NCBI RefSeq assembly: GCF_023217965.1
Contig: NZ_JALPSC010000001.1
Coordinates: forward strand, 1,612,001 to 1,676,000
Source: Prevotella sp. E13-27
GTDB lineage: Bacteria; Bacteroidota; Bacteroidia; Bacteroidales; Bacteroidaceae
Direction of reading: 5' to 3'
Length of the DNA stretch: 64,000 nucleotides
Positions 16,981-41,780 of this stretch are shown here, piece after piece (positions within the stretch are counted from its first letter, which is position 1; every line of letters begins with the position of its first letter). The notes under the pieces are model-generated. The model worked only from the letters and a program-made list of their open reading frames with translations, ran no database searches and was not told the DNA's origin. The position numbers and the translations under genes are program-made.

Positions 16981-17073
16981 ATGGAGCCAAGACGCATGTG
17001 GCGACGCTATTTGATAGGCAACCCGCTGTTTCTGTGGAATATAATGAGAGAAAAATTTAATGGTGACCGATGA
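16981..17073 (+). pseudogene. C-terminal remnant of a WecG/TagA gene
   Basis: The frame encodes MEPRRMWRRYLIGNPLF and continues to EKFNGDR then TGA. It matches the last 29 residues of the WecG copy at 40608-41366 rather than those of the nearer copy at 13659-14411. The DNA from 16984 is nearly identical to that from 41277. It overlaps the following nucleotidyltransferase start by ATGA, the same coupling seen at 41363. It marks one edge of a duplicated segment. Confidence 0.85.
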
Positions 17074-17363
17074 CCTCAATTAGGAATTTTGTCATTCTGT
17101 TGCGTTGTGGTATGGGACTGAAGACCAAAGAGGGTCAGCGGCCTATGCCGGATGTTGACGGCGAACAAGAGTGGCAACAGATGATGAGGATAGCCAAGAA
17201 ACAGGCCGTACAAGGCGTGGTTGAGCGTGGCATACGTATGATGCCGGAAGAGCAACGCCCACCGCGAAAGATAAACATGGCTGCCATGATGTTGAGTGAT
17301 AAGATTGCAATGCTCAACAGAAGGGTTGACACAGCATGCGTCAAGGTAGCTGCCATGATGGAG
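16984..17363 (+). repeat. Left copy of a ~380-bp direct repeat (pair at 41277-41656)
   Basis: The segment covers the end of wecG and the start of the nucleotidyltransferase. By eye about six substitutions separate it from 41277-41656 (constant offset 24293). The right copy then jumps to sequence equivalent to 18041 onward, so the pair extends discontinuously for another ~115 bp. The two copies are in direct orientation and bracket the second polysaccharide cluster. Confidence 0.92.
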
Positions 17364-18176
17364 GAGGCTGGGTTGCCTTGTTGCATACTGAAAGGGCAGG
17401 GCATAGCCCTTACCTATCCAGACCCGACAGCTCGTGTGCCGGGTGACATCGATGTGTGGGTGATGGCTCCGCCAAAGCAGGTAATAGCCTTTGCACGAAA
17501 GGCTCAGCCCGATGCCTTTGCGTGCTATCACCATGTGGAGTATGTGAAATGCGACGGCATAGAGGTAGAACTGCACTATCGGCCGGCATTCCTCAATAAT
17601 CTCATTTACAACAGACGACTGCAGCAGTGGTTTCTTAGCGAGGCAGCCACACAGCGGGAACACCGTGTGGAACTGCTAAATGGCGCTGGAGTGGTGAGCG
17701 TACCAACCAATGCCTTTAACCGCATATTTCTGATGGTACATATCATGAACCATGTGATACACGAGGGTATTGGCATGCGACAGATGATGGACTACTATTT
17801 CCTGTTGAGGCAGGGCTTCACAGAAGAAGAACGGCAGCATGACGTGCAATTGCTGCGACAGTTTGGCCTTTATGATATAACGGCTGCAGTCATGTTTGTG
17901 ATGAGGCAACTGTTCGCCATGCCAAAGCGATATTTGCTTGTTCCGCCAGACGAGCAGCGCGGCATTTTCCTGATGAACGAGATTCTCTATGGAGGAAACT
18001 TCGGTCAGTATGATCCGCAGTCAATACAGGCAAACACACCATGGAGAAAGAACATGCTGCGATTGAAGCGAGACTGGAGACTGCTGAAAATATTTCCCTC
18101 CGAGTGCCTTTGGGAACCAATATTCCGTTGGTGGCATTTCTTTTGGCGCCAACTGCACCGTAGAATTAATTCTTAA
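17070..18176 (+). CDS. Nucleotidyltransferase-fold family protein (PF14907-like) of polysaccharide loci
   Basis: A 368-residue protein with a minimal nucleotidyltransferase signature: CCILKGQGIALTYPDP, then VPGDIDVWV at about 125-133 (the GDIDVW metal/nucleotide motif), then VELHYRPAFLN. These proteins are common at the ends of Bacteroidales capsule loci; the reaction is not established. The start overlaps the stop of a wecG remnant. Its last codons lie in a heptamer repeat array (18168-18202). A shortened, frame-broken copy is at 41363-41765. Confidence 0.8.
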   Translation: MTSIRNFVILLRCGMGLKTKEGQRPMPDVDGEQEWQQMMRIAKKQAVQGVVERGIRMMPEEQRPPRKINMAAMMLSDKIAMLNRRVDTACVKVAAMMEEAGLPCCILKGQGIALTYPDPTARVPGDIDVWVMAPPKQVIAFARKAQPDAFACYHHVEYVKCDGIEVELHYRPAFLNNLIYNRRLQQWFLSEAATQREHRVELLNGAGVVSVPTNAFNRIFLMVHIMNHVIHEGIGMRQMMDYYFLLRQGFTEEERQHDVQLLRQFGLYDITAAVMFVMRQLFAMPKRYLLVPPDEQRGIFLMNEILYGGNFGQYDPQSIQANTPWRKNMLRLKRDWRLLKIFPSECLWEPIFRWWHFFWRQLHRRINS

Positions 18177-18202
18177 TTCACAATTCACAATTCATAATTC
18201 TT
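18168..18202 (+). repeat. Heptamer array, five AATTCNN-type units
   Basis: Five consecutive 7-bp units: AATTCTT, AATTCAC, AATTCAC, AATTCAT, AATTCTT. The stop codon of the nucleotidyltransferase gene falls in the first unit. It has the same unit length and number as the array inside the ATP-grasp gene at 27374-27408. Confidence 0.85.
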
Positions 18203-18240
18203 CGACGAGCGAAGCGACAAAGCCGAGCACACAATTGCCT

Positions 18241-18447
18241 TCCCTTGGCGATATGAGTATCGTGGGCCCACGGCCTCACATGCTGGCTCATACTGAACAA
18301 TACGACAAGCTGATAGGTAAGTACATGGTGCGCCACTTTGTCAAGCCTGGCATCACAGGCTGGGCTCAGGTAACCGGTTTTCGCGGTGAGACCCGTGAAC
18401 AGTTTGCGCAATATAGGCCCTGTGCGCTTCCACAAAATGTGATGTAA
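18241..18447 (+). pseudogene. Fragment of an undecaprenyl-phosphate sugar phosphotransferase (WcaJ/WbaP-like)
   Basis: About 54 residues match the catalytic tail of initiating sugar transferases: LGDMSIVGPRPHML, YMVRHFVKPGITGWAQVTG and FRGETREQF. Both ends are missing: upstream sequence is a heptamer array and low-complexity DNA, and after about 18402 the frame becomes unrelated (AQYRPCALPQNVM). An intact enzyme would transfer a sugar-phosphate to undecaprenyl phosphate to start repeat synthesis. No intact initiating transferase is visible in the window, so one must be supplied from elsewhere. Confidence 0.82.
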
Positions 18448-18451
18448 ACAT

Positions 18452-18564
18452 TACTTTAGCTATACTCTAGCCATACTCAAAGCTGCTTCTAGCCATACTC
18501 TAAGCATACTCTAGGCATACTCAAACAGTATGGCACGAGTATGGCTAAAGTGAGAGTAAACGCT
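18452..18564. repeat. Dispersed CCATACTC-rich palindromic element, copy A
   Basis: Contains several CATACTC/GTATGGC words. TAGCCATACTC (18469-18479) is the exact reverse complement of GAGTATGGCTA (18538-18548), so the element can fold. It ends in GAGAGTAAACGCT, as does copy B at 39001-39096, which shares most of its sequence. With the sugar-transferase stub it fills the gap before the next gene; no other feature is seen there. Confidence 0.75.
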
Positions 18565-18633
18565 CAGAAATGCGATTTTGATGACAGGAACCTATCCCCG
18601 TGTCTCCATAGAGAGATAAGAGAAAGATAAAAG

Positions 18634-18963
18634 ATGAACAAGATACAACGTCAAAAGGCTTGGGAATGTGGTTTGCCAGCCTATTTGCAGCACGATTTGG
18701 ATGCGTACAAGGAAGGGCTCCGTTCAGGTAGCACGTTGATTGACTGCCTGTGGTGCGAGTTATATGGCAGCATCAATGGTGCAGAAATCGACGACCAGGC
18801 TATTTCTCACGCCCCTGCAACGGCAGTTCTACATACAGTATCTCACACGTCGATGCCAGATCATGTTTCAATAACATTTGACAAAGAAACACCAAACACC
18901 AAGAGTGTCAGATGGAGCGGTGGAGAAAGGAATAATGATGACAGCAAGTTAATACAATCATAA
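18634..18963 (+). CDS. Small hypothetical protein
   Basis: 109 residues beginning MNKIQRQKAWECGLPAYLQHD and including STLIDCLWCELYGSINGAEID, a stretch that looks conserved-protein-like rather than random. There are no membrane segments or signal peptide. The C-terminal 40 residues are polar and low in complexity, possibly drifted. I do not recognise a named family. The stop overlaps the flippase start by one base, which supports translation and coupling. Confidence 0.6.
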   Translation: MNKIQRQKAWECGLPAYLQHDLDAYKEGLRSGSTLIDCLWCELYGSINGAEIDDQAISHAPATAVLHTVSHTSMPDHVSITFDKETPNTKSVRWSGGERNNDDSKLIQS

Positions 18964-20429
18964 TGTCGCAGAAGAATCTTAAAAAGAAAGCTGCCGCAGG
19001 CATGATTTGGACGGCGTTGCAGAAATATTCTACAATGATTATCCGTTTTATCTCCGGCATCATCTTGGCGCGCCTGCTCACACCATTTGACTATGGTTGC
19101 ATCGGTATGCTGATGATATTTATGGTGTTGGCCGAAGCATTTATCGATGGTGGCTTTGGTTCCGCCCTGATACAGAAGAAGCGTCCTACACAAGAGGACT
19201 ATAGTACCATCTTTTGGTTCAATGTCGGCATGTCAGTGCTGCTTTATGCCGTCCTGTATGTCAGTGCCCCTGCTATTGCGCGATTCTACGATATTTCGCT
19301 CCTATGTGATGTTCTTCGAGTGCAGGGTGTGATATTGTTTATTTATGCCTTCAACGTCATCCAAAAGAACCAGTTGCGCAAGAAACTGAACTTCAAAGTT
19401 TTGTCCATCGTAACCGTTACAACGTCCATTTCTGCCCTGATTATAACCATTCTCATGGCCTATCATGGCTTCGGCGTCTGGGCGTTGGTAACCCAGAATA
19501 TTATTACTGCCGCCATTCCTGCCCTCATATTCTGGTTTTACATCAAGTGGAGGCCCATTTGGACTTTTTCTGTCAAGTCATTTCGGGAACTGTTTAGTTT
19601 TGGCATCTATATGTTCCTGACCCATTTGGTCAACCGTTTCGGGCAACAATTGCAGGGGCTGCTGATTGGCAAGTTTTACAATGCATCCACTATGGGCTAT
19701 TATTCCAAGGCAGACGGAACTGAAAGACTGGCCTCCACTTCCATCAGTGGAGTTATGACCCAAGTGACTTATCCGCTTTACGCCGAAGCACAGGATGAAA
19801 AGGAAAAACTGACCAACATGATTTGTCGCATTACGATGACACTCTCTTATGTTACATTTCCATTGATGTTCATTCTTTTGCTTTGCGCTAAACCTATCTT
19901 CGTCTTTCTTTATTCCGACCGATGGCTACAAAGTGTCCCGTATTTTCAAGTATTGTGTATAGCAGGGCTGGCTGGTTGTTTGCAGTCTGTCAATTTGCAA
20001 TCCATTGCTGCTATTGGAAAAAGCAAAGAGATGTTTCTATGGACGATATTTAAGCGAATTGTTGGCATAGGAATAGTTGTGTCTGGATTGGTATGTTTTG
20101 GCATGAAAGGGCTTTTGGCGGGTGTTGTTTTTAATTATTGGTTCTCTTGGTTTGTCAATATCAGTCTGGTCTCAAAATATATTGGATACAAATGGTACAA
20201 GCAGATTGTGGACATCTTACCCGTCACGATAGTTTCATTATTTGCTGCATTAGTCAGTTTTGGCGTTGGCTATCTGTTGCATTTGGACATGTATCCCGAT
20301 GGCATCGTAAAATTCACCATCTATGTGATTATTTATTTAGGTTGGTCTTTTGTATTTAAGCCGGAAGCATACACCTATTTCCTAACTATTATTCCATCAA
20401 AGCTTAAAATCTGGAAGAAGAAAGTCTAA
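18963..20429 (+). CDS. Wzx-type polysaccharide flippase (second copy)
   Basis: A 488-residue polytopic membrane protein. AGMIWTALQKYSTMIIRFI, LARLLTPFDYGCIGMLMIF and GGFGSALIQKKRPTQEDYS parallel the first flippase (3431-4864), but identity is clearly partial. It belongs to the MOP oligosaccharide flippases that translocate lipid-linked repeat units. It is the first large gene of the second cluster, immediately downstream of the repeat element. Confidence 0.9.
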   Translation: MSQKNLKKKAAAGMIWTALQKYSTMIIRFISGIILARLLTPFDYGCIGMLMIFMVLAEAFIDGGFGSALIQKKRPTQEDYSTIFWFNVGMSVLLYAVLYVSAPAIARFYDISLLCDVLRVQGVILFIYAFNVIQKNQLRKKLNFKVLSIVTVTTSISALIITILMAYHGFGVWALVTQNIITAAIPALIFWFYIKWRPIWTFSVKSFRELFSFGIYMFLTHLVNRFGQQLQGLLIGKFYNASTMGYYSKADGTERLASTSISGVMTQVTYPLYAEAQDEKEKLTNMICRITMTLSYVTFPLMFILLLCAKPIFVFLYSDRWLQSVPYFQVLCIAGLAGCLQSVNLQSIAAIGKSKEMFLWTIFKRIVGIGIVVSGLVCFGMKGLLAGVVFNYWFSWFVNISLVSKYIGYKWYKQIVDILPVTIVSLFAALVSFGVGYLLHLDMYPDGIVKFTIYVIIYLGWSFVFKPEAYTYFLTIIPSKLKIWKKKV

Positions 20430-20435
20430 AATACG

Positions 20436-21641
20436 ATGAAAATAGCTTTAATCAAAGAAACCAAGAATCCTGTGGATAATCGCGTGGCACTTACTCCAAA
20501 GCAAGTGGCAGAATTGAACAAACTGTATCCTCAGCACAGAATTGTAGTTCAGTCCAGTGCTATCCGTGCTTTTTCTGATGACGAATATCGTGCAGAAGGT
20601 GTCCAGGTGCAGGACGATATCAGCGATGCTGACATCCTTGTTGGCATCAAAGAAGCTAAGATAGACACACTGATACCTGACAAGCATTATTTTTTCTTTG
20701 GTCATATAGCTAAAATGCAGGAATATAATCGCCCGTTGCTTCAGGCTATGTTGGCTAAGAACCTCACTTTCTCTGACTATGAATATCTTGTAGATGAGAA
20801 TGGTGAGCGTGTTTGTGCCTTCGGTTGGTGGGCTGGTGTAGTCGGTGTATATTACACCTTGCGAGGCTATTTTCTCCATGATGGTCGTCATTCACTACCC
20901 CAACCAGACCGTAAGTTCACATTGACTCAGATGCGGACTATATTAGCAACAGCACAGTTGCCAAAGGTGAAGATTCTGATTACAGGAAATGGACGAGTGG
21001 CTCAGGGCGCTACATACGTGATGCGCGAATGCCGTGCTCAGGAACTGACCTACGAGCAGTTTATGAGTGATGAGCCAGTAAACACGCTATCTTTTTACCG
21101 AGCATCTGTCAATGAACTAGTAAAACGGAAAGACGGAAAACCATTCAACCGTGGTGATTTCCGCAGCAATCCTGAGAATTATGAGAGCGATTTTATAAAA
21201 TTTGCTAAGCATACTGACATCTTAATTTCTTGTCATTTCTGGGATCCTAAGGCTCCCGTTTATTTGGAGCAGGAAGATTTTCAGAAATATGATCTTCCTA
21301 TCAAGATGATTGGCGACATCACCTGTGACATTTGTGGAAGTATAAAGTCTACTATCAGACCGACTACCCATGCCGAGTCGTATTATGACTTCAATCCCGT
21401 TACTTATAAGGAGGAGTTGCCCTTCTCGTCTAAGAATCATATTACGGTTATGGCTGTTGACACTTGTCCCAATGCTCTGGCAATCGATGCCAGTGAGTAT
21501 TTCGGTGAGATGTTGACAGAATACGTATTCAAGCCCTTGCTTAGTGGAGTGCATTCCGATGTGATTAGCCGCTCAACGATTTTGAAAAACGGGCAACTGA
21601 CTCCGAGATTTGACTATCTGAAAGAATTTGCTGAAAACTGA
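20436..21641 (+). CDS. Saccharopine/alanine dehydrogenase-like oxidoreductase (LYS1-like)
   Basis: A 401-residue protein with the AlaDH/PNT N-terminal signature (IALIKETKNPVDNRVALTP) and a Rossmann segment KVKILITGNGRVAQGA, closest in memory to NAD-dependent saccharopine dehydrogenase (lysine-forming). Further landmarks are DITCDICGSIKSTIRPTTH and FSSKNHITVMAVDTCPNALA. Lysine catabolism does not fit the setting. In a polysaccharide cluster a reductive amination giving an N-carboxyalkyl amino acid is conceivable, but that is inference. It lies 6 nt after the flippase and before several ATP-grasp genes. Confidence 0.78.
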   Translation: MKIALIKETKNPVDNRVALTPKQVAELNKLYPQHRIVVQSSAIRAFSDDEYRAEGVQVQDDISDADILVGIKEAKIDTLIPDKHYFFFGHIAKMQEYNRPLLQAMLAKNLTFSDYEYLVDENGERVCAFGWWAGVVGVYYTLRGYFLHDGRHSLPQPDRKFTLTQMRTILATAQLPKVKILITGNGRVAQGATYVMRECRAQELTYEQFMSDEPVNTLSFYRASVNELVKRKDGKPFNRGDFRSNPENYESDFIKFAKHTDILISCHFWDPKAPVYLEQEDFQKYDLPIKMIGDITCDICGSIKSTIRPTTHAESYYDFNPVTYKEELPFSSKNHITVMAVDTCPNALAIDASEYFGEMLTEYVFKPLLSGVHSDVISRSTILKNGQLTPRFDYLKEFAEN

Positions 21642-21659
21642 TTATAGGGGGCTGAAAAT

Positions 21660-22133
21660 TTAAAATTTTAAGAAATTGTATAAAACGGTATTCAAATACT
21701 TGAAAAGGTCTCGTGGATGTTTGTCCATGATTTGGCATAGATCTGAATATGTTAATCATGTTTCCTATTATCCGGAATGCACGCATAAAACATCTTTTCA
21801 GATTTTGAAGGATCAGTCGCATTATAAATGGAAATACGGATATGTTGAAGCTTCAAACAGTCATGGATAAAGATGGTAATACCATTTGGCCCTGGGGTTA
21901 GAATCGGACGAGAAGGAAGTATTGTTGATAATTGGGCTTTTGGAGGAGTCTTTGTTGGAATTGATGCAAAAACTGGAAGGCTGATGGATAAGAGCATTCT
22001 TAAACCTAAATCAATTGGGTGGGATATTGCCATTACGCCACAAGGCCCTATGGTTATTGAGGGAAATGACAGATGGGAAATCACTTTGATTCAAGCCGTC
22101 CATGGAGGAATGGGTTATTTAATGAAGTTTTAA
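21660..22133 (+). pseudogene. Internally deleted sugar-transfer-associated ATP-grasp gene
   Basis: Two pieces in different frames remain. The first (to the TAA at about 21868) resembles the N-terminus of ATP-grasp_ST proteins (YYPECTHKTSFQILKDQ, WKYGYVEA). The second (21873-22133) is the C-terminus: GVRIGREGSIVDNWAFGGVF, IGWDIAITPQGPMVIEGN and WEITLIQAVHGG. The central ATP-binding part, including the lysine strands, is missing. It cannot be an active ligase. It is a relic beside functional paralogues at 24116 and 34056. Confidence 0.8.
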
Positions 22134-22159
22134 ATAAGTAGTCTAAACATAAGCATTTT

Positions 22160-22954
22160 ATGGTTCGAATAATAATCAATGCTGATGATTTCGGAAAAAG
22201 TCCGGGACGAAATCAAGCTATTAATGACTCCTTTGCACAAGGTATGATTCGTTCTGCCGGACTGATTGTTACAGGAAAATATCTACCTGAGGCCATAGAA
22301 CTTGCTAAAGCGGGGAAGTATATGGACAAGTTGCACCTCCATTTCAACTTATCTGCCAACCAACTGCAAGAAGGTTCCGAAGATGCTCCCCTGACTGAGG
22401 CGATGAGAAAAGACCCATTTTTCTGCAAAAATCAGAAGTTTTTGAAGTATCATGGATTGCCAAAAGAACTTACCAGCATCAGAAAATGGAGGCTAGTCTA
22501 TGATGAGTTGGTTGCACAGTATAAGAAATTCAATGAAGTTACTGAAGGAAAGGCTGACTATAAGCATGTGGACTTTCATTTATGGTATAATCTGACATGG
22601 TCGGTAGCCGTTGCCTTAAACCTTTTTACACGAAAATACAAGATTGAGTCCGTTCGATATTGGGGATTACATCAAATGAACAAACGAAGATTCAAAATTT
22701 ATAGATTTTTAAGTTGGAATCATTTAGTAAAATCTATACCAGCGACAAATATCGATTATTTCCTCTCAAAAAGAGATTCCTTTAAGCAGTATAATGTCGT
22801 TGAATTATATTGTCATCCGAATTATAAGGATGGTGTATTCTTAGATGACAGTCCATCTTATCTCAAGCACGATCGTCAGCCAATGATGAAGCAGATCCAA
22901 ATGCTAAAAGAGTTAGGTAGTGTTGAATTCTTGTCGTGGGAGGATATCATTTAA
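22160..22954 (+). CDS. ChbG/YdjC-family carbohydrate deacetylase
   Basis: 264 residues. NADDFG at 7-12 supplies the metal-binding and catalytic Asp pair, HLHFN at 59-63 and HVDFH at 136-140 the metal-binding histidines, and ELYCHPNY closes the barrel. Family members remove N-acetyl groups from sugars such as diacetylchitobiose. The usual HxDxHxH third motif is reduced here to HVDFHLW, so activity or metal geometry may differ. In this cluster it could free an amine for later acylation or aminoacylation. Confidence 0.82.
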   Translation: MVRIIINADDFGKSPGRNQAINDSFAQGMIRSAGLIVTGKYLPEAIELAKAGKYMDKLHLHFNLSANQLQEGSEDAPLTEAMRKDPFFCKNQKFLKYHGLPKELTSIRKWRLVYDELVAQYKKFNEVTEGKADYKHVDFHLWYNLTWSVAVALNLFTRKYKIESVRYWGLHQMNKRRFKIYRFLSWNHLVKSIPATNIDYFLSKRDSFKQYNVVELYCHPNYKDGVFLDDSPSYLKHDRQPMMKQIQMLKELGSVEFLSWEDII

Positions 22955-22964
22955 AGATAGATAA

Positions 22965-24113
22965 TTGATGAATAAGCAAATTAGAATTTTTTTTGCAGGA
23001 GATTTCTGTTCCAAGCCATCCACATCAAAGATTACGGTTTCGGACGAATTGAAAAGTCTGATACAGTCGTGTGACTTGAAGGTTGTGAACTTTGAAGTCC
23101 CACTTAAGCCAAATGTGGAATTACCGCCTCAGAAAAGGGAACGGTTCTTCCAAAACGATGATGCACCAAATTTTCTACGTAGTTTAGGCTTTAATCTTTT
23201 CCAATTAGCAAATAATCATGCTTTTGACTGGGGTGAGAATGGGTTCAAGAAAACAAAAGATGCATTAGAGAACCAATCGTTTGGCGCAGGAACATACGAG
23301 GAAGCATATAGAATCAAGGTCTGTGAGACAAACGGATTAAAGATAGGATTTCTGTCGTTGTCGTTCGCAGCCTATACAGGTGTGTTTAATAATGTGATGA
23401 ACCACGAAGGGTTGGGTTGTGCTTATATCTATGATTTGAAAGTGAACCATGTCATCATAGAAGCGAAAAACGAAGTGGATTATTTGTTTGTTCTGCCTCA
23501 TGATGGTATTGAATATATCGATATTCCATTGCCAGAAACCATTGCTCGCTATCGTGACTTTATAGACTATGGCGCAGATGGTGTGATAGGCACTCATCCG
23601 CATTGTCCGCAAGGTTGGGAAACATATAAAGATAAGCCCATCTTCTATAGCCTTGGCAATTTTCTATTCAACAGCAAAGAAAACTACGAGTTCAGAGCAA
23701 ACCGCCCTCATTGGTACGAAGGACTTTGTGTGTTGATGACCATTGAAAAGAATAGCATCAAATGGGAAGTGTTGAACACTCGCAATGTTGACAATGTCAG
23801 ACTCATAATAGACTCTGATAAAGAGAGGATTGAACATAATAGACAATTGTGCCGTTATCTTGCTGATAAAGATGCGTATGACAACTATCTAAACAAGATA
23901 TGTACGACACTCGGTCAAAAAGAACTGTCTATCATTGATAGAGTGTTTCATCCCCAAACCCTAAAGGAATGCTCAGGATTGTTGTTGAAATATTGGATAA
24001 GCAAGCTAAAAGGAAAGGATATTATAAACGATTATAGGTTGCTACGCTTACTTACGCATGATGCAAGAAGAGACTTACTTATGCAGACTTTACATCGAAA
24101 TAACAGCAAATAA
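22965..24113 (+). CDS. CapA-family protein (poly-gamma-glutamate capsule-type metallophosphatase fold)
   Basis: 382 residues with CapA marks: FFAGDFCSK near the N-terminus, VVNFEVPL, FQLANNHAFDWGENGF, LPHDGIEYIDIP and DGVIGTHPHCPQGWE followed by IFYSLGNFLF. CapA proteins belong to the calcineurin-like phosphoesterase group and are needed for poly-gamma-glutamate capsule assembly or anchoring, by an unclear mechanism. There is no signal peptide, unlike many CapA proteins, so this copy is probably cytoplasmic. It lies directly between the deacetylase and an ATP-grasp ligase. Confidence 0.87.
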   Translation: MMNKQIRIFFAGDFCSKPSTSKITVSDELKSLIQSCDLKVVNFEVPLKPNVELPPQKRERFFQNDDAPNFLRSLGFNLFQLANNHAFDWGENGFKKTKDALENQSFGAGTYEEAYRIKVCETNGLKIGFLSLSFAAYTGVFNNVMNHEGLGCAYIYDLKVNHVIIEAKNEVDYLFVLPHDGIEYIDIPLPETIARYRDFIDYGADGVIGTHPHCPQGWETYKDKPIFYSLGNFLFNSKENYEFRANRPHWYEGLCVLMTIEKNSIKWEVLNTRNVDNVRLIIDSDKERIEHNRQLCRYLADKDAYDNYLNKICTTLGQKELSIIDRVFHPQTLKECSGLLLKYWISKLKGKDIINDYRLLRLLTHDARRDLLMQTLHRNNSK

Positions 24114-24115
24114 AC

Positions 24116-25192: not shown

Positions 25193-25203
25193 CTTTTTTT
25201 ATT

Positions 25204-25824
25204 ATGTCATTTATTATGTCAGATAGATTTCAAATAATTGAAAAGCCCGAATGGGTGTCGTGGGACGAAATCCATGAGGTGGTATGGGAAGCTCACGCAA
25301 ATAATAGAGAGAAAGGTATTATCATGTCATACCCTTCACTTTCTGGTGAAGAAATAAAAAAAAGGATAGAGAATAATGGCAAAATGTATGTTGCAATAGA
25401 TGGGCAAAATGTAATAGGTACTTTAGCATTAATAATAAAAAAAGGGAACAAATGGTATAATAAGGGATCTTATGGTTATCTCTGTTTTGGGGCAGTACTT
25501 CCCAATTATAGCGGTAAAGGAATATATCGTTCATTGTATAAAGTCGCAGAGACTACTGCTATAAATATGGGAATTTTCGTTATTACGAGAGATACAAATG
25601 AGAAAAATGCCAGAATGCTAAAAATATCAAAGCAAGAAGGTTATCATTTTGTTGAATGCAAAGCATACAAAGATCATTTCAATATAGTCCGTGCTAAATG
25701 GTTAGATGGTTGTCCTTATTCCTCATGGTATATCAAAATGAGGTTTCTTCTGTCAAAATTCAAGCAGAAAACTCGTTATAAAATGGTTCCAGGAAAGGGA
25801 CGGGTAAAGCGTTTTGGAATATAA
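25204..25824 (+). CDS. GNAT-family N-acetyltransferase
   Basis: About 206 residues from ATG 25204 (MSFIMSDRFQ). A longer frame from a TTG inside the preceding gene is less likely, and ATG 25216 is also possible. Acetyl-CoA-binding strands are suggested by GYLCFGAVLPNYSGKGIYRSLYK, a QxxGxG/A-like pyrophosphate loop, followed by TRDTNEKNARMLKISKQEGY. The N-terminal part reads PEWVSWDEIHEVVWEAH. It could N-acylate an amino sugar or an amino acid on the polymer. Base composition is noticeably AT-rich compared with its neighbours. Confidence 0.75.
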   Translation: MSFIMSDRFQIIEKPEWVSWDEIHEVVWEAHANNREKGIIMSYPSLSGEEIKKRIENNGKMYVAIDGQNVIGTLALIIKKGNKWYNKGSYGYLCFGAVLPNYSGKGIYRSLYKVAETTAINMGIFVITRDTNEKNARMLKISKQEGYHFVECKAYKDHFNIVRAKWLDGCPYSSWYIKMRFLLSKFKQKTRYKMVPGKGRVKRFGI

Positions 25825-25829
25825 TCAGA

Positions 25830-28258: not shown

Positions 28259-28261
28259 GAA

Positions 28262-28669: not shown

Positions 28670-28719
28670 AATGATATATAGACCACGGTAGAGAAGAATT
28701 ACAATTAAAACATTGACAA

Positions 28720-29517: not shown

Positions 29518-29565
29518 CTACACTATTCGAATTAAATGATAGGTACACGATAAAACTTTATAGGC

Positions 29566-30519: not shown

Positions 30520-30521
30520 GG

Positions 30522-31844: not shown

Positions 31845-31847
31845 TCA

Positions 31848-32918: not shown

Positions 32919-32925
32919 TATTGAT

Positions 32926-34041: not shown

Positions 34042-34055
34042 GAGGAAATAGCATC

Positions 34056-35195
34056 ATGAAAAAACAAACTATAAAATCAATAACTCGCAATCTGCTTTAT
34101 CGCTTTCGTCAGATTAAAACTGAACGGTTTTACCTCCTTATCATGCGCAAAAATGGCATTGCCAATAAAAAGGTTGTTGGAGAAAAGGAATGGGTTGAAA
34201 AATGGTCACAATTCGGACTGAAAGCAAAGCCTACACAATATAGGGTGTTTAGTCATTATATTGGTAATGATATAAACATCGTACCCGAAGATATTTGTCA
34301 TGACTTCATTGAAACCATTTTAAATCCCATGCGTTTCCGAGGTTATTATGCAGATAAAAATGTTTTTGATAAACTGTTTCCTGAAAGTTACATGCCGCGG
34401 ACTGTTCTGCGTAAAATGAATGGCACGTATTATGATGAAGCTTATCGACCAATTGAGATGACGGAATCAGTGTTTTTTCAAATCCTTAATCAATCAAAAA
34501 TAGATAAGATTGTCATAAAGCCTAGTGTGGGAGGTATGTCTGGGCATGATGTCAGACTCTTTTGCAAAGACCGGGATGCTTCTCAATCGTGGAGGGATTC
34601 AAGCACAAAGACGTTATTGGATTTATCATACATTGAACATTATTACGGTTCAAACATGATTATTCAAGAAGTAGTGCAGCAAAGTGATTATATCAGTATG
34701 TTTAATTCTTCTTCAATCAATACATTGCGATTAAGCGTTTACCGTTCCGTTTCCGACAATGAGTGCTATGTTACGGGAGCAATAATGCGTATTGGAGGGA
34801 AAGGAAGTGTAGTTGATAATGCACATGCTGGTGGTTGTTTTGTTGGCATTCATCCAGATGGTTCTTTCTGCCACGAAGTCTGCAATCAATATGGACAGCA
34901 ACAATCTACCTTTAATGATATTGATTTTACCAACAATTATCAATATCCTAACTGGTATAAAGTTATAGAATTTGCAAAGTCAGTTGGTAAGCATGTTCTT
35001 CATCATCGTCTGTTAGCATTAGATATTGTATTAGACAAAGACAATCATCCTCATTTGATAGAGTTTAATATTGAAGGTTACGCTTCATGGCTTTTCCAAT
35101 ATACAGTTGGTACTGCTTTTGGAGATTTTACTAATGAGATATTGCGCTATTGCCTGAAGAAACAAAAGGAAATAGAAGAAGTTATTTGTTTATGA
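34056..35195 (+). CDS. Sugar-transfer-associated ATP-grasp ligase
   Basis: 379 residues, same broad family as the proteins at 1236 and 24116. Landmarks are MPRTVLRKMNGTYYD, KIVIKPSVGGMSGHDVRLF with the nucleotide lysine, NMIIQEVVQQSDYISMF, SSSINTLRLSVYR, RIGGKGSVVDNAHAGGCF and HLIEFNIEGYASWL. It probably links an acid (often an amino acid) to an amine. The stop overlaps the next gene's ATG (ATGA), so the two ATP-grasp genes are coupled. Confidence 0.86.
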   Translation: MKKQTIKSITRNLLYRFRQIKTERFYLLIMRKNGIANKKVVGEKEWVEKWSQFGLKAKPTQYRVFSHYIGNDINIVPEDICHDFIETILNPMRFRGYYADKNVFDKLFPESYMPRTVLRKMNGTYYDEAYRPIEMTESVFFQILNQSKIDKIVIKPSVGGMSGHDVRLFCKDRDASQSWRDSSTKTLLDLSYIEHYYGSNMIIQEVVQQSDYISMFNSSSINTLRLSVYRSVSDNECYVTGAIMRIGGKGSVVDNAHAGGCFVGIHPDGSFCHEVCNQYGQQQSTFNDIDFTNNYQYPNWYKVIEFAKSVGKHVLHHRLLALDIVLDKDNHPHLIEFNIEGYASWLFQYTVGTAFGDFTNEILRYCLKKQKEIEEVICL

Positions 35196-36094
35196 GTAAA
35201 TTATATAAATTATTGAAGTACCCCTTAAAGCCGTTCGCTAAGATTCTGGAGCGTCTATCGCCATACGTGAGAAACGACGAAACCTACCTGCGTTGGTATT
35301 ACTTCTTTTGTATGAAAAAGAGACTGAATCTGACATCACCTACCACATACAATGAAAAGATAAACTGGCTGAAGCTTTACAACCGCAATCCTTTTTATAC
35401 CACATTGGTTGACAAACTAAAGGTAAAGGATGTTGTGGCGCAGAAGATAGGTGACGAACATGTGATAAAGACTCTTGGCGTTTGGAAGCATGCAGAAGAT
35501 ATTGATTGGGACAAATTGCCCGACCGTTTTGTGTTGAAGACAACGCAAGGTGGGGGCAATGTCGGAATAATGATTTGTCGCGATAAATCCTCTTTCGACA
35601 AGGCGAAGGCCGTATCAAATATGAATGCTGCATTGAAGCAGAACCTCTATTATTCTTCTCGCGAATGGCCATATAAGGACGTAGAACCGATGATCTTTGC
35701 AGAAGAGTATATGGAAGACGAACATGGAGAACTGCGCGATTACAAATTCTTCTGCTTCAACGGTAAATGCAAGATGCTTTTTGTTGCCACAGAACGGCAG
35801 ACTCGCGAAGAACCCTTTTTCAATTTCTTTGATGAGAACTACAATCCATTGCCTTTCAAACAAGAGCACCCTGTGAATCCCGTCATTCCCGAAAAGCCTG
35901 AAGGCTTTGATGAAATGAAGCGCATTGCAGAGGAATTGTCTAAAGGACTTCCCCATGTCCGCATGGATTTATATGTAATCAACGGAAAAGTCTATTTTGG
36001 AGAATATACGTTCTATCATTTTGGAGGTGCTATGCCTTTTGAACCTGCGGAGTGGGATTACAAGATAGGCGAGTGGCTGCAATTGCCTTCTTAA
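35192..36094 (+). CDS. TupA-like ATP-grasp protein
   Basis: 300 residues from ATG 35192, which overlaps the upstream TGA; a longer frame starting at 35150 lies inside that gene. [58 protein letters not shown] and [27 protein letters not shown] match the TupA-like ATP-grasp family named for teichuronopeptide synthesis in Bacillus, where glutamate/glucuronate peptide chains are built. It therefore fits peptide or amino-acid decoration of a cell-surface polymer. Confidence 0.9.
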
Positions 36095-36116
36095 TCCATG
36101 TATACATTGTAGAATA

Positions 36117-36671
36117 ATGATACAAACAAGACAAGACTTAAAGCGTTTTCTTTATACGGAGGACGCATTGATGAGGCATCCCAACATGTTTCTAAAATGG
36201 TTGGGGCGTTCTGACGATTATCTTCCATTCCTATTGGTGAAATGTCTAAGGAAGTACGAATACTATAAGAATAAGAAAAGAAACTTCTTGGATATTATTC
36301 CATACGCTTGGTATATGTGGAATTTCCGCAGACTGAGAGTAAAGACTGGAATTATGCTTTTTCCTAACACTATTGACGAAGGGCTACTTTTGGTTCACCC
36401 AGGATTTAGACGAATCGATAAATTTGCTCATATAGGAAAGAATTGCACCATACTTCCCAATGTCCTTTTTGGTCTGAAGACTCCTGAAGGTGGATTTCAA
36501 GATATTAAAATTGGTGATAATTGTTATATAAGCACAGGAGTGACAATCTTGGCACCAGTAACAATAGGCAACAATGTAACTATAGGTGCAGGAGCCGTAG
36601 TTAACAAGGATGTTCCCGACAATTGTGTGGTAGGTGGAGTACCTGCCAAGATTCTAAAATACAAGGAATGA
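36117..36671 (+). CDS. Serine-acetyltransferase-like hexapeptide acyltransferase
   Basis: 184 residues. The C-terminal half is a left-handed beta-helix: [56 protein letters not shown] and the cap [12 protein letters not shown]. The N-terminal helical part ([19 protein letters not shown]) matches the polysaccharide-cluster CysE-like subgroup. It probably O-acetylates a sugar in the cytoplasm. Confidence 0.87.
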
Positions 36672-36720
36672 TAATTGTGATCTGAATGCACAAAAACTTA
36701 ATGTTCATATTCCAAAGCAA

Positions 36721-37833
36721 ATGATAGCTCATCAAGAAAAAAGACAAGAGTATGTAGATGTCATCAAGGGATGGGCAATGTTGCTCATTGTCGTATTCCA
36801 CTCATCATCTGGATTGTTTCCGAAGATGGTTCATTCACTCTTAGGTGGTGGAATGGATGTCGTTATATTCTTTATCGTTGCCGGCTTTTTTATTAAAAGT
36901 GAGCGCATGGTGAATCCTAAAAGCTTTCTGCAACCTAAATTGAAAACTCTTTATATTCCAGCAACAGTTATCTATGTCTGTGCGGTCTTGCTACATAATG
37001 TATTTGTTGACATTGGCTGGTATCCTCTTGGCGAAATCCACCCTGGCAACGGACAGCCTTTTCACTATTACGATGTGAAAGATTTCGCACTTGGTGTATT
37101 GAAGGCTCTTTGTTGTGCAGGAAGTGGTGAACTTGCAATGGGTGCAATGTGGTTTCTCTATACATTGCTTTATGCGATGACGGGACTAAGTTTATTGGCT
37201 TGGACGACAAAGAAGTTTGTTGATGATGAAAAACAGAGAGAAAAGATACTTATCATTATCTTGCTTACAGGTTTGATTGCCAGTTGTGTTTTAACACAGA
37301 TTATTGGTTTAACCATCAACCGATTAAATGTTTCCATAACAGCTATGGCACTTATTTATCTTGGGAAGAAGGTTTATCAGGATTATCATTGGACTTTCGA
37401 TAACACTTTCTATTTCATTATTAGCAGCTTGATATTTGTTTCTGTGGTTTTCTTGCAAAAGGATCATATTACGATGGCAAGGAACAAATACCAGGATATA
37501 TTACAGTTGTGTATTGGGGGGTGTACTTTGTTGTATATGTGGGGGTATATTGCAAAACGGATAGTTTCGACCTGTGTGGGAAAGCTGTTAGCATCGATAG
37601 GTAGAGAGTCCTTATATGTGATGGCACTTCATATTGTAGGCTTTTTCATTTGTAATAGTCTTATGGAATTGTTAGGGGTTTATCAACAAGGTGATCCAAA
37701 AGGCATGTACACATATAAGATGCAAGGCAATATACTAATATTTATTTGTTATATGGTATTTGCCATAGGATTCTCTTTGACATCTATTAACCTGTTTCGC
37801 CGACTAAAGTCTATTATACTCCCAAACCGATGA
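36721..37833 (+). CDS. Acyltransferase family 3 membrane protein
   Basis: A 370-residue protein with about ten membrane segments. YVDVIKGWAMLLIVVFHSS, with the conserved basic/His region, followed by DVVIFFIVAGFFIKSERM, is the standard start of acyltransferase-3 proteins (OafA/WecH type). It would move an acyl group across the membrane to a sugar on the lipid-linked intermediate or polymer. It overlaps the following GT4 by 4 nt. Confidence 0.86.
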   Translation: MIAHQEKRQEYVDVIKGWAMLLIVVFHSSSGLFPKMVHSLLGGGMDVVIFFIVAGFFIKSERMVNPKSFLQPKLKTLYIPATVIYVCAVLLHNVFVDIGWYPLGEIHPGNGQPFHYYDVKDFALGVLKALCCAGSGELAMGAMWFLYTLLYAMTGLSLLAWTTKKFVDDEKQREKILIIILLTGLIASCVLTQIIGLTINRLNVSITAMALIYLGKKVYQDYHWTFDNTFYFIISSLIFVSVVFLQKDHITMARNKYQDILQLCIGGCTLLYMWGYIAKRIVSTCVGKLLASIGRESLYVMALHIVGFFICNSLMELLGVYQQGDPKGMYTYKMQGNILIFICYMVFAIGFSLTSINLFRRLKSIILPNR

Positions 37834-38966
37834 CTCCACGCATCTATTTCTTTGCTAATTTCGGTAACTGGAACCGCCAGCCATACGGCGGAGGTGAGAT
37901 AGGCAACCGCCGTACACTCGGAATGATGCGGCAGGCTGGATATGATGTACACTTGATTGAGAAATATAATCGGGTGTATAAGCATACGCGGACGGATACA
38001 ATTATTATTTCTTGTCTGATGATATGGGATATCGTCAAGTTTTTCTGTATTCTGTTATTTGGCCGGCGCAAGAACAGTTTGGTTCATATTGTTGGATTTT
38101 ATGGCAGCACCATCTACTTTGAGCGTATTTTGGTCGGTATTTCTCACTTGTTGGGCTATCAGACGGTTTATGAGATGCGAGGTGGGGGCGCAGTCTTTCA
38201 TTACCAAAACGATTCTGAACGTTATAGACATTGGTTTGCTGCTACCATCAGACAAGCGGATTACATCTTCAGCCAGGGGCAGGAAAATAAATCTCTCATA
38301 GACAGCATCGACCAGGGTAAACATTTCTTTTACTATCCTAATTGCGTCATGCGCGATTTCTGTCCCAAAGAATATCCTAGTAAGCCAACCAACCGCATCA
38401 ATCTGCTTTATTTCGGGCGTGTGGCTAAGCGAAAGAATGTGGATGTCGTTGTTGATGCCTTCAATCTATTGGCTGCAAAATACAGTAACATCTATCTTGA
38501 CATAGTAGGAAACTGTACAGAACCCACATACGCAGAGGAGATAAAAAGGCGTATAAGTGCCTCGGAATTTACCAACCGGATAACGATGCATCCTGCCTGC
38601 AGTCATGACAGGCTGAAAGAACATCTTGCCGACAAGCACTTTTATATCTTTCCGACCTCTGAACCACGAGAAGGACATAGCAATGCCCTCACCGAAGGAA
38701 TGGCATGGGGACTAATTCCAGTAGCTACAGATATAGGCTTTAACCGAGCAATTGTTGGTGACGATATGTTAATAGTTAAGCAGCTTTCGGCAAAAGCCTT
38801 TGACGATATTGTTGCAAATGTTGTAGATAGCGGAAAGATTCAGGAACAATCAGAAAGAGCCTATCACCGCATACAAAGTAACTATACAGAGGATATTGTC
38901 TATAACAGATTGAAAGAGGAATACAATACTCTTTTCAGTTTGTGTCATACGACAAGAGAATCATGA
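37830..38966 (+). CDS. Glycosyltransferase family 4
   Basis: 378 residues. The N-terminal glycine-rich loop is WNRQPYGGGEIGNRRTLG. INLLYFGRVAKRKNVDVVVDAF, IYLDIVGNC and FPTSEPREGHSNALTEGMAWGLIPVA form the C-terminal donor site, with EGHSNALTE in the E-x7-E position. It is the last biosynthetic gene before the second ATPase. ATGA overlap with the acyltransferase indicates coupling. Confidence 0.88.
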   Translation: MTPRIYFFANFGNWNRQPYGGGEIGNRRTLGMMRQAGYDVHLIEKYNRVYKHTRTDTIIISCLMIWDIVKFFCILLFGRRKNSLVHIVGFYGSTIYFERILVGISHLLGYQTVYEMRGGGAVFHYQNDSERYRHWFAATIRQADYIFSQGQENKSLIDSIDQGKHFFYYPNCVMRDFCPKEYPSKPTNRINLLYFGRVAKRKNVDVVVDAFNLLAAKYSNIYLDIVGNCTEPTYAEEIKRRISASEFTNRITMHPACSHDRLKEHLADKHFYIFPTSEPREGHSNALTEGMAWGLIPVATDIGFNRAIVGDDMLIVKQLSAKAFDDIVANVVDSGKIQEQSERAYHRIQSNYTEDIVYNRLKEEYNTLFSLCHTTRES

Positions 38967-39000
38967 CTTCGTGACACAAAAATCATAAAGATGAGGTTTT

Positions 39001-39096
39001 ACCCATACTTTACCCATACTCTATGCTGCTTCTAGGCATACTTTAGGCATACCCAAACTCTATGGCATAAATATGGCTAAAGCGAGAGTAAACGCT
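39001..39096. repeat. Dispersed CCATACTC-rich palindromic element, copy B
   Basis: Shares with copy A (18452-18564) the run CTCTATGCTGCTTCTAGGCA-like core, the GGCATAC words, ATGGCTAAAG and the end GAGAGTAAACGCT. It lies in the 308-bp non-coding gap between a GT4 gene and the second ATPase, upstream of that ATPase's promoter. Nothing else is seen in this gap. Confidence 0.75.
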
Positions 39097-39173
39097 TTGA
39101 AAAGTGAATATACTTTGTGGCGCAACGATCATTCGTTTGTTGATATGCTCAGCAAGAAGTCGTGAATGAAAGA

Positions 39174-39205
39174 TTTGGAGAATAAAAAAGAATGATGTAT
39201 TTTTG
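39174..39205 (+). promoter_or_regulatory. Consensus Bacteroidetes promoter for the second ATPase
   Basis: TTTG at 39174-39177 and TATTTTTG at 39198-39205, separated by 20 bp, match the -33/-7 consensus. The ATPase start is 70 bp downstream. The ATPase is thus transcribed independently of the polysaccharide operon. Confidence 0.75.
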
Positions 39206-39274
39206 CAATCGAAATGGATATTTCGGAAATGGCTGTTGCGATAATTAAGGTACAATAATTCAAAAGTTTATACA

Positions 39275-40594
39275 ATGAGATTCTACGGCAGAGAACAGGA
39301 AATCGCCTTCCTGAGAGAGACTCGGGACACGGCTGAACGGGTGGCCCGCTTTACGGTGGTAACCGGTAGGAGGCGTATCGGCAAGACAACACTGATTAAG
39401 GAGGCTTACAAGGATGAGCCTTTCGTGTATTTCTTTGTGGCCAGAAAGGCGGAATCGGACCTCTGCGAGGTGTATCTGGAGGAGGTCAGCGAGAAGTTGG
39501 GCATTCCTACACTGGGCAGTAGCAGGCACTTCAGCGAGATATTCCGCTACCTGATGCAACTGTCGCAAACCCGGAGCTTTACGCTGGTGATAGACGAGTT
39601 TCAGGATTTCTTCAGAGTGAACAAGGCCTTTTACAGCGAGATGCAGGACATCTGGGACGAGTATGAGAAGACATCGAAGATGAACCTGGTGGTGTGCGGC
39701 AGCATCTACTCGCTGATGCAAAAGATTTTCAAGCAGAAGAAGGAACCTCTATATGGACGACAAACAGCAGAACTGAGGGTGAAGCCTTTCAAGCCTTCGG
39801 TGCTGAAGCAGATTATGGCAGATGCGAAGCCCGGATACACAAAGGAGGATCTGCTGGCCATGTTCACATTTACGGGTGGTGTGGCTAAATACGTGGGACA
39901 GTTGGTGGATGGTGGTGCGTTGGACAAGGATGCCATGATAAGGCACATCGTGAGCCCCAACTCGACATTCCTGAACGAGGGCAAGAATAATCTGATAGAG
40001 GAGTTTGGCAAGGATTATGGTATCTATTTCTCCATCCTGTCGTGCATTGCCAGGGGCAAGAACACTCGTAGCGAGATAGAGGATGTGATAGGCAAGGAGG
40101 TGGGGGGATATCTGACCAACCTGGCCGAGGATTATGAGTTGATTAGCAAGCGGCAGCCCCTGTTTGAGAAGAGCGCCAACAAGAACGTGCGCTACGAGCT
40201 AGACGACGTGTTCTATAGTTTCTGGTTCCGGTTTATCTTCAAATACAGCTATATTATCGAGATTGAGAACTATGCCAAGCTGCAGGAGATCATCGGGCGC
40301 GACTACAGCACATTCAGCGGACTGATGCTGGAGCGGTATTTCCATCGTGTGGTCATGGAGTCGGGTGAGTTTACACGTATTGGCCGTTGGTGGGACCGCA
40401 AGGGCGAGAACGAGATAGACATGATAGCCGAAGACGGGCTTTCGGATAGCGTGACGTTCTACGAGATTAAGCGTCAGGCGGATGAAATCAGCATGGGTGT
40501 GCTGAAACAGCGGGCTGAGGTGATGCTGCAGGCCACGCACGAGTGGAAGAAGTACGACATCCACCACAAGGGACTGAGTATGGAGGATATGTAA
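39275..40594 (+). CDS. Archaeal-type AAA ATPase with DUF234-like nuclease-fold C-terminus
   Basis: 439 residues. P-loop GRRRIGKTT at 31-39 and Walker B LVIDEFQ at 104-110 are followed by CGSIYSLMQ (sensor) and a winged-helix region. Near 371-401 the sequence GENEIDMIAEDG...YEIKRQ has the spacing of a PD-(D/E)xK nuclease core, as in DUF234 proteins. The class is widespread and of unknown role. It belongs to a different ATPase family branch from the one at 7534, but has the same habit: a single gene with its own promoter inside a polysaccharide locus. Confidence 0.85.
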   Translation: MRFYGREQEIAFLRETRDTAERVARFTVVTGRRRIGKTTLIKEAYKDEPFVYFFVARKAESDLCEVYLEEVSEKLGIPTLGSSRHFSEIFRYLMQLSQTRSFTLVIDEFQDFFRVNKAFYSEMQDIWDEYEKTSKMNLVVCGSIYSLMQKIFKQKKEPLYGRQTAELRVKPFKPSVLKQIMADAKPGYTKEDLLAMFTFTGGVAKYVGQLVDGGALDKDAMIRHIVSPNSTFLNEGKNNLIEEFGKDYGIYFSILSCIARGKNTRSEIEDVIGKEVGGYLTNLAEDYELISKRQPLFEKSANKNVRYELDDVFYSFWFRFIFKYSYIIEIENYAKLQEIIGRDYSTFSGLMLERYFHRVVMESGEFTRIGRWWDRKGENEIDMIAEDGLSDSVTFYEIKRQADEISMGVLKQRAEVMLQATHEWKKYDIHHKGLSMEDM

Positions 40595-40607
40595 CATTTC
40601 TATAAGG

Positions 40608-41366
40608 ATGCTGAGACTTCAAGAATTGGACATCGTAGAATCTAAAGAGCAGTTGGCGCTTATCCCTGAAGGGAAAGTGCTGATTAACACCATTAATGCC
40701 CATTCCTATAACACAGCGCAAAGAGATGATGCGTTTGCTGAGGCGTTGTGTAACGGAGATTATCTGATTCCCGATGGAGCAAGCATCATCAAAGCTTGCC
40801 GATGGCTGAAAGCGAAGTCGCAGCCAAAGGAACGTATTGCTGGATGGGACCTGTTCGCCTTTGAAATGGGGAGAATTAACGTTAACCTTAACATTAACGA
40901 TAACCATAACGGAAAAAAACGAGTGATGTTCCTCGGGTCAAGCGAGAGGGTGCTGACACAGATCCGGGAGTGTGCTGCCGTTGATTACCCGAATCTTGAG
41001 GTGGTGACCTATTCTCCGCCTTACAAGCCAGAGTTTTCGGACGAGGACAATCAGACGATGATAAGGGCCATCAACGATGCCAACCCCGACCTGTTGTGGA
41101 TTGGCATGACGGCACCGAAACAGGAGAAATGGACCTACCAGCATTGGAATGAGCTCAACATTCACTGTCACTGCGGCACCATTGGGGCCGTGTTTGACTT
41201 CTATGCTGGTACTGCTAAACGTGCCCCGATGTGGTGGCAAAAGCATGCGTTAGAATGGCTTTACCGCCTGCTGATTGAGCCAAGACGCATGTGGCGACGC
41301 TATTTGATAGGCAACCCGCTGTTTCTGTGGAATATAATGAGAGAAAAATTTAATGGTGACCGATGA
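40608..41366 (+). CDS. WecG/TagA/CpsF-family (GT26) glycosyltransferase, copy 2
   Basis: 252 residues, clearly paralogous to 13659-14411: INTINAHSYNTA, YLIPDGASIIKACRWL, VMFLGSSERVL, LWIGMTAPKQEKW, CHCGTIGAVFDFYAG and the tail EPRRMWRRYLIGNPLFLW. It carries a hexamer-coded INVNLNINDNHN loop (40875-40910) before KKRVMFLGSS. Its last 90 bp are duplicated at 16984-17073. It probably adds the second sugar of the second repeat unit. ATGA overlap joins it to a broken nucleotidyltransferase gene. Confidence 0.9.
   Translation: MLRLQELDIVESKEQLALIPEGKVLINTINAHSYNTAQRDDAFAEALCNGDYLIPDGASIIKACRWLKAKSQPKERIAGWDLFAFEMGRINVNLNINDNHNGKKRVMFLGSSERVLTQIRECAAVDYPNLEVVTYSPPYKPEFSDEDNQTMIRAINDANPDLLWIGMTAPKQEKWTYQHWNELNIHCHCGTIGAVFDFYAGTAKRAPMWWQKHALEWLYRLLIEPRRMWRRYLIGNPLFLWNIMREKFNGDR
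40875..40910 (+). repeat. Hexamer array (NNTAAC)6 inside wecG copy 2
   Basis: Six 6-bp units: ATTAAC, GTTAAC, CTTAAC, ATTAAC, GATAAC, CATAAC. They encode alternating residues with Asn. The unit is a multiple of three, so copy changes keep the frame. Copy 1 of wecG has unrelated low-complexity sequence at the same site. Confidence 0.88.
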
Positions 41367-41656
41367 CCTCAATTAGGAATTTTGTCATTCTGTTGCGTTG
41401 TGGTATGGGACTGAAGACCAAAGAGGGTCAGTGGCCTATGCCGGATGTTGACGGCGAACAAGAATGGCAACAGATGATGAGGATAGCCAAGAAACAGGCC
41501 GTACAAGGCGTGGTTGAACGTGGCATACGTATGATGCAGGAAGAGCAACGCCCACCGCGAAAGATAAACATGGCTGCCATGATGTTGAGCGATAAGATTG
41601 CCATGCTCAACAGAAGGGTTGACACAGCATGCGTCAAGGTAGCTGCCATGATGGAG
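41277..41656 (+). repeat. Right copy of the ~380-bp direct repeat
   Basis: Nearly identical to 16984-17363 over the wecG 3' end and nucleotidyltransferase 5' end, in the same orientation and 24293 bp away. From 41651 the homology jumps to 18041 onward and continues to about 41765. Confidence 0.92.
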
Positions 41657-41765: not shown

Positions 41766-41780
41766 CATTAGCATATAAAA

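Follow-up and report, generated by a model that had tools for sequence, protein, structure and literature searches.

We analyzed a stretch of 64,000 nucleotides from Prevotella sp. E13-27 (contig NZ_JALPSC010000001.1, positions 1,612,001 to 1,676,000; G000:C1:1612001-1676000), hereafter called the window, in which a polysaccharide gene cassette of about 24 kb lies between two copies of a direct repeat. The genome (G000) is assembled in two contigs of 3.96 Mb in total, and the contig that holds the window (C1) is 2.23 Mb long. We propose, with moderate confidence, that this locus is a stack of Wzx/Wzy-type modules, two of which end in a wecG gene followed by a nucleotidyltransferase gene of the NTP_transf_5 family. 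The stack would consist of a first cluster (cluster 1), the worn end of an older module and a mosaic cassette. The left copy of the repeat and a wcaJ scar behind it also exist in a related genome (G060), which does not possess the cassette. The best reading of the two repeat copies is therefore that each marks the end of a module of its own, and that one of these modules has been gutted. From the sequences compared, the left copy looks like the remnant end of the older module rather than like a flank duplicated on insertion. Among gut and rumen Bacteroidales, capsule-type gene sets are highly variable, and traces of the individual steps of their exchange seldom survive. Here, the remnant of an older module lies next to a module of foreign appearance and a second, damaged anchor, and a relative without the cassette is available. 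The value of the locus is that of a preserved intermediate of a known kind of genome change, the stacking and loss of polysaccharide modules.

Anatomy of the two repeat copies

The features at the two ends of the cassette are given below (window coordinates, strand, feature).

16981-17363, +, left copy of the direct repeat (383 bp; repeat search and pairwise alignment)
16981-17073, +, orphan wecG tail, last 31 codons (in frame; matches the right-hand wecG, first residue excepted)
17070-18176, +, intact left nucleotidyltransferase, NTP_transf_5, 368 amino acids (aa) (PF14907, E=6.3e-28; 96% identical in G060)
18244-18399, +, wcaJ fragment that follows the intact nucleotidyltransferase gene and is taken for the tail of the older module (52 residues; 96% identity with upstream WcaJ, residues 371-422)
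40608-41366, +, right wecG, WecG/TagA/CpsF glycosyltransferase (PF03808, E=1e-51)
41274-41656, +, right copy of the direct repeat (383 bp; repeat search and pairwise alignment)
41363-41860, +, frameshifted right nucleotidyltransferase, an open reading frame (ORF) of 165 aa with 683 bp missing internally, which runs on into the end of the acyl-CoA dehydrogenase gene (alignment; same junction in protein P0238)
41651-41767, +, second part of the right repeat (equals 18041-18157; 114 of 117 bases identical)

The two copies have the same orientation and are identical at 376 of 383 aligned bases, with mismatches at positions 16983, 17139, 17171, 17225, 17245, 17297 and 17309. This repeat is the longest of the three direct-repeat families of at least 60 bp reported in the window and is far beyond chance. 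A sequence-only reading of the window had described a same-orientation repeat of about 380 bp with about six mismatches; the repeat is real, and six of the seven mismatches fall in the span 16984-17363 that it gave. The same reading took the repeat to contain the 3′ end of wecG and the 5′ end of the nucleotidyltransferase gene. This content is correct but too small, because the 3′ end of the nucleotidyltransferase gene is repeated as well (41651-41767); this second match stops 19 bp short of the end of the left gene. The right copy is the nucleotidyltransferase gene minus 683 bp, and because 683 leaves a remainder of two when divided by three, its frame is shifted. ATGGAG is present at both break points of the deletion. 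The left nucleotidyltransferase scores 98.4 bits against the curated cut-off of 31.2 bits for NTP_transf_5 (PF14907), and the broken right ORF had no Pfam match, PF14907 included.

The wecG tail starts 12 bp past the end of the Wzc-type gene (16968). As had been claimed, its 31 codons match the right-hand wecG in frame and not the left-hand one; the left-hand and right-hand wecG genes are 72% alike over 651 bp. The junction between wzc and the tail looks like a further short deletion, with an ATTGA-like sequence seen by eye on both sides. Behind the intact nucleotidyltransferase gene, the wcaJ fragment matches an intact WcaJ that sits approximately 25 kb upstream of it.

Protein P0238 shares with the right copy both the deletion junction and the reading on into the end of the acyl-CoA dehydrogenase gene; it has R, P and F where the right copy in the window has W, Q and L. 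Its cluster comprises five member sequences from three contigs, the longest of 1,567 bp; the source is given as "-", so that the cluster may include the window's own protein. At the level of protein letters, which cannot tell the two apart, P0238 is compatible with an excision product and also with a right copy that lacks the three changes. Because its junction is listed from other, short contigs, the right end of the region is probably not an artefact.

The two parts of the repeat predict different outcomes if the cassette were excised by homologous recombination, as the sequence-only reading had considered. With a crossover in the 383-bp segment, 24,293 bp would be lost and the broken nucleotidyltransferase would be the only one left; with a crossover in the 117-bp segment, the loss would be 23,610 bp and an intact gene would survive. 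The segment used would thus determine whether a cell that has shed the cassette still has a functional nucleotidyltransferase.

A relative without the cassette and the shared end in the genus

The closest relative found is G060 (locus L066, NZ_CAMJOS010000035.1), a draft metagenome bin. The sequence-only reading had suggested a comparison with related strains; the genomes compared here number one per species. Contig 35 of G060 is colinear in pieces with window positions -7215 to 18252 (negative positions lie upstream of the window). The pieces are mostly 90-92% identical, except for -3308 to -1952 (98.0% over 1357 bp) and the nucleotidyltransferase block (96%). The former piece is a gene (L046 16692-18048), radical-SAM-like by eye, whose neighbours are near 91%. 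The order in L066 is wzc, approximately 300 bp, an in-frame wecG remnant of 88 aa, an intact nucleotidyltransferase gene and a wcaJ fragment. The wecG remnant is 81% identical to the right wecG in its 5′ part and 98% in its 3′ part. The wcaJ fragment is at the same junction as in the window and corresponds to residues 204-291 (61%), another part of wcaJ than the window's residues 371-422. When positions 18163-38000 were used as a query, G060 gave matches only to wcaJ, the wcaJ scar and short dispersed repeats. Thus, G060 possesses cluster 1, the wecG remnant, the nucleotidyltransferase and a wcaJ fragment, and the state of the left copy is present without the cassette. We rejected G060 as an excision product: on the upstream side its wecG-nucleotidyltransferase end is of the right type and on the downstream side of the left type, whereas a deletion between the repeats would leave the reverse combination. 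As a separate observation, positions 11955-13653 hold an acetyltransferase and a glycosyltransferase gene, and L066 has instead another glycosyltransferase in two overlapping frames.

Over the 383-bp anchor, there are 7 differences between left and right, 8 between left and G060 and 7 between right and G060; private bases number 4 in the left, 3 in the right and 4 in the G060 anchor. Anchor identity between G000 and G060 is 98%, while the larger pieces of the common locus are mostly 90-92% identical.

The surroundings of the capsule block were also compared. In G060, a C_GCAxxG gene (named by eye) is directly behind the acyl-CoA dehydrogenase gene, with 8 bp between the aligned pieces. In G000, the same two pieces are 50.36 kb apart with the entire capsule region between them, and the C_GCAxxG piece aligns up to G000:C1:1603472. 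The C_GCAxxG piece is 76% identical between the two genomes, as against 91% for the dehydrogenase, so that it could be a related copy and not the same gene. The adjacency of these genes was also found in 2 of 29 other loci (the top-ranking ones among 49 further genomes with a match); the remaining 27 had no such match within up to 1.5 kb. On one side, the capsule contig of G060 reaches an ABC-2 permease gene (named by eye); G000 has the counterpart of this gene on the contig that does not hold the window. The other flank of the G060 block mostly has no long counterpart in G000. Judged from these alignments, with G060 being a draft bin, the position of the capsule block appears to differ between the two genomes.

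Beyond G060 (96-98% at the DNA level), the shared end was found as DNA in G033 (83%), where wecG (77%) adjoins the nucleotidyltransferase gene (84%). We also examined 30 wecG loci out of 46 matches in 120 genomes, with a nucleotidyltransferase profile built from 38 ORFs. A WecG match was present in 40 of the 120 genomes, and 6 of these 40 had two, some of them fragments. A nucleotidyltransferase of the NTP_transf_5 family was downstream of wecG in 7 of the 30 loci, the window's right copy included. The gene order wecG-nucleotidyltransferase stands behind different contents in G006, G152, L069 and L070, with protein identities of 27-68% for wecG and 33-49% for the nucleotidyltransferase. In G006, wecG, the nucleotidyltransferase gene and wcaJ follow in this order (68, 38 and 40% protein identity). 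An order of this type would explain the wcaJ scrap behind the left nucleotidyltransferase.

Contents and origin of the cassette

The remaining features of the capsule region are as follows. The Pfam scan covered the 40 ORFs of 90-43556.

90-14411, +, window part of the first polysaccharide cluster, with flippase at 3431-4864, polymerase at 5945-7336 and left wecG at 13659-14411 (Pfam; pieces colinear with G060:C35)
14425-16968, +, Wzc-type tyrosine kinase and chain length regulator, 847 aa (Wzz, just under the cut-off, and AAA_31 stretches; TIGR01007 above the cut-off)
18441-18560, no strand, dispersed intergenic element of 11-bp iterates (7 matches in G000 including itself, one at 38998-39092)
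18634-38966, +, body of the second (cassette) cluster (Pfam; low GC; not found in G060)
39275-40594, +, ATPase_2/DUF234 ATPase upstream of the right wecG (Pfam; missing before the wecG remnant of G060, L066 9560-9800)
41829-43556, -, acyl-CoA dehydrogenase, right edge of the capsule region (Pfam)

Cluster 1 extends upstream of the window to wcaJ, the start of which is approximately 7.8 kb before the window. Behind the wcaJ fragment, the order is the 11-bp-iterate element, an ORF of 109 aa and the cassette flippase (18963-20429). The Pfam matches assign to the cassette body, besides this ORF and the flippase, AlaDH/PNT-like, YdjC, PGA_cap and ATP-grasp proteins, GNAT, a cytidylyltransferase, LicD, a nitroreductase, a polymerase (30522-31844), a pyruvyltransferase, glycosyltransferases, a TupA-like protein and acyltransferases; WecG is at 40608-41366. 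With Polysacc_synt_3, Wzy_C, Glycos_transf_1 and WecG all present in 18634-41366, the cassette is of the Wzx/Wzy type. The sequence-only reading had called it a complete second polysaccharide set. The flippase, polymerase and WecG are indeed its own, but no Wzc-type chain length regulator was found among the cassette ORFs, the sole one in the 40 scanned ORFs being that of 14425-16968, outside the cassette. Likewise, no Pfam match to an intact priming transferase was found in the cassette ORFs; only the 52-residue wcaJ fragment stands at the cassette head.

In 18177-39000 the GC content is 40.5%. It is higher in the right wecG (48.5%) and in the left anchor with the nucleotidyltransferase (49.7%), and amounts to 46.5% for 1-13658 and 50% for 41829-50771. 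Among 398 genomes of the genus, 15 (G000 included) matched 18600-38590 at E<=1e-60. Only G371 matched the cassette over long colinear stretches (within 18972-32424, 79-85% identity, with gaps), and the others matched in pieces of at most approximately 2.2 kb. Pieces of 34037-36059 resemble G152 (74-75%), and pieces of 36117-41347 (36117-36671, 37830-38776 and the right wecG) resemble G221 (76-85%). By composition and by these matches, the cassette is a low-GC mosaic of foreign appearance. The G371 region that resembles the first half of the cassette (G371:C1:1640453-1656526; L140, L141) contains three flippase copies and self-repeats of up to 2.9 kb.

For the cassette polymerase, 2 of 117 rows reached at least 90% identity, the window's own included; for the polymerase of cluster 1, 42 of 120 listed (839 found) did so, again including its own. 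Both counts were made by eye, and each search scored only approximately 8,000 candidates, those with the most words in common with the query. From these numbers the cassette looks, weakly, rarer than cluster 1; the two polymerase families differ in breadth.

Several side observations were made in and around the capsule region. The ATPase_2/DUF234 gene has 51% GC and stands behind a cassette body of 40% GC. The 11-bp-iterate element forms inverted repeats and has several matches in G060 too. An AAA_14 ATPase gene (7534-8706, in the span 7364-8758) lies between the polymerase and glycosyltransferase genes of cluster 1 and is not at that place in L066; approximately 30 bp of the glycosyltransferase start were found on both sides of it. 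A 66-bp direct repeat of 91% identity is at 51276-51341 and 54809-54874; its first copy duplicates, as an orphan, the 3′ end of gene 54811-55752 and is separated from that gene by an 857-aa ORF (51791-54364). An intergenic element of approximately 205 bp occurs in opposite orientations at L046 11554-11758 and window 50948-51152 (81% alike).

Weighing of the explanations and known parallels

The sequence-only reading had proposed serial insertion of modules through a common 3′ anchor. Two modules with the same end, the absence of the cassette from G060 and the 98% likeness of the anchor agree with this proposal; the idea that the repeats are the two sides of one insertion is not supported as it stands. 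We suggest that the cassette would have entered by RecA-type recombination through the wecG-nucleotidyltransferase end, that the body of the older module would have been lost by deletion, and that the 683-bp deletion would then have weakened one anchor. Homologous recombination at a common end is the simplest way that we see to join different bodies to one end; the exchange itself we infer.

Several observations weigh against this stack of modules. Shared DNA at the end was found in only 6 of the 398 genomes at E<=1e-20, G000 included; one of the six, G290, has the same contig coordinates as G060 and was taken as the same genome. In G033 the contig ends at wecG and the contents beyond are unseen, 23 of the 30 wecG loci showed no such nucleotidyltransferase within up to 1.5 kb downstream, and the other genomes with the same gene order resemble the end only as distant proteins. 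The likeness of the anchor is not singled out, since 5491-5890, 16291-16690 and -3308 to -1952 are also 97-98% identical to G060; a binomial figure of 5e-9 for this likeness, which assumes a background of 9%, overstates the case. The likeness may also come from conversion after stacking. Furthermore, G060 is a draft bin whose capsule contig stops 1.3 kb after the nucleotidyltransferase gene. Because its capsule block lies at another place, the data fit either a gain in G000 or a loss in G060.

Other explanations were weighed against the same data. Two modules with a common end might have been acquired independently and kept alike by gene conversion or recent sharing, in which case the anchor would not have guided their acquisition. 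The left, right and G060 anchors are about equidistant, and elsewhere in the genus the common end is mostly seen in gene order and protein similarity and not in DNA, as this explanation would have it. It gives no account of why different bodies precede the same end in G000 and G060, and we regard it as possible but doubtful. A tandem duplication of one module through unequal crossing-over, after which the interior of the second copy was replaced, finds a precedent in the repeated flippase-led segments of G371, with their three flippases and self-repeats of up to 2.9 kb. Nevertheless, the two wecG genes are only 72% alike, no direct repeat of at least 60 bp was found between the clusters except for the anchor pieces (repeats below approximately 65% identity or with indels can be missed), and separate closest relatives of the module interiors are partly seen; this course is unlikely. 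A single insertion, in which a circular cassette entered by one crossover at the anchor and made both repeats as an integrated plasmid would, is in keeping with a cassette that G060 lacks and that is bounded on both sides by repeats in the same orientation. However, the nucleotidyltransferase-wcaJ scar stands behind the left copy in the window, just as it stands behind the sole copy in G060, and a single crossover into a G060-like site would place the scar after the right copy, where the acyl-CoA dehydrogenase gene stands. We therefore disfavour it as the simple reading and consider it quite improbable.

Carriage of the cassette by a transposon, an integrative element or a plasmid would suit a capsule block found at different places in G000 and G060. 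In the scopes searched, no transposase or integrase domain, tRNA or plasmid match to the anchor was found, and this explanation is very unlikely. Specifically, the 40 scanned ORFs contained no transposase, integrase or relaxase domain (Pfam), and the window contained no tRNA. A plasmid origin was rejected: the anchor had no plasmid match, and 18900-26800 had a single match of 154 bp at 71%. Searches of Rfam over the window gave no match at the gathering score, and the four matches in the leader before wcaJ each fell short of the gathering score. Viral contigs contained neither of two exact junction patterns (30 and 24 bases). Finally, repeats are in general a known source of assembly errors, and the sequence-only reading had itself named an assembly duplication as a danger to its view. 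The seven substitutions in 383 bp, the 683-bp deletion, the different flanks, the 2.23-Mb contig and the occurrence of the junction in P0238, with three other residues and from contigs of at most 1,567 bp (where the cluster may include the window's own), make such a duplication extremely unlikely. We thus retain the stack of modules, with one end gutted. A wider proposal, that the wecG-nucleotidyltransferase end serves Prevotella-type bacteria as a docking sequence, kept alike between species, for appending and shedding foreign modules, and that the stack of approximately 50 kb moves between sites as a unit without an integrase, is speculative and rather unlikely to be right as a whole.

Among the literature matches listed, no title or abstract opening dealt with this repeat or with a wecG-nucleotidyltransferase anchor in Prevotella. 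Parallels are described in excerpts of published work. The tandem cap-b locus of Haemophilus influenzae has a truncated terminal bexA-IS1016 copy with an internal deletion of 1.2 kb (PMC6535587). As far as the excerpt goes, it resembles our locus in that polysaccharide genes lie between direct repeats of which one end copy is shortened (683 bp here, 1.2 kb there), and differs in that the copies are of one capsule type and an insertion sequence is in the repeats. In the window, the modules differ, the repeat is wecG and nucleotidyltransferase coding sequence, and no transposase domain is in the 40 ORFs. Capsule loci are exchanged through the conserved flanks dexB/aliA in pneumococcus and galF/gnd in Klebsiella (PMC6249986). 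In those systems, as excerpted, a conserved end can likewise permit exchange of contents by homologous recombination; whole loci are replaced between two flanks there, whereas here a module stands behind an older one, only the 3′ end is common and the exchange would be a conjecture from its product. In transformation-made merodiploids of pneumococcus, unequal exchange through repeats leads to tandem arrangements, and binary encapsulation is mentioned (PMC3784515). According to that excerpt, self DNA was duplicated in the laboratory; in our case the product alone is seen and the modules differ. In Enterobacteriales, surface-polysaccharide loci have been relocated whole to new chromosomal settings (PMC7305143); the excerpt concerns another bacterial order, and our comparison involves just two related genomes, of which G060 is a draft. 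The locus belongs with these known tandem, flank-exchange, merodiploid and relocation cases of capsule loci.

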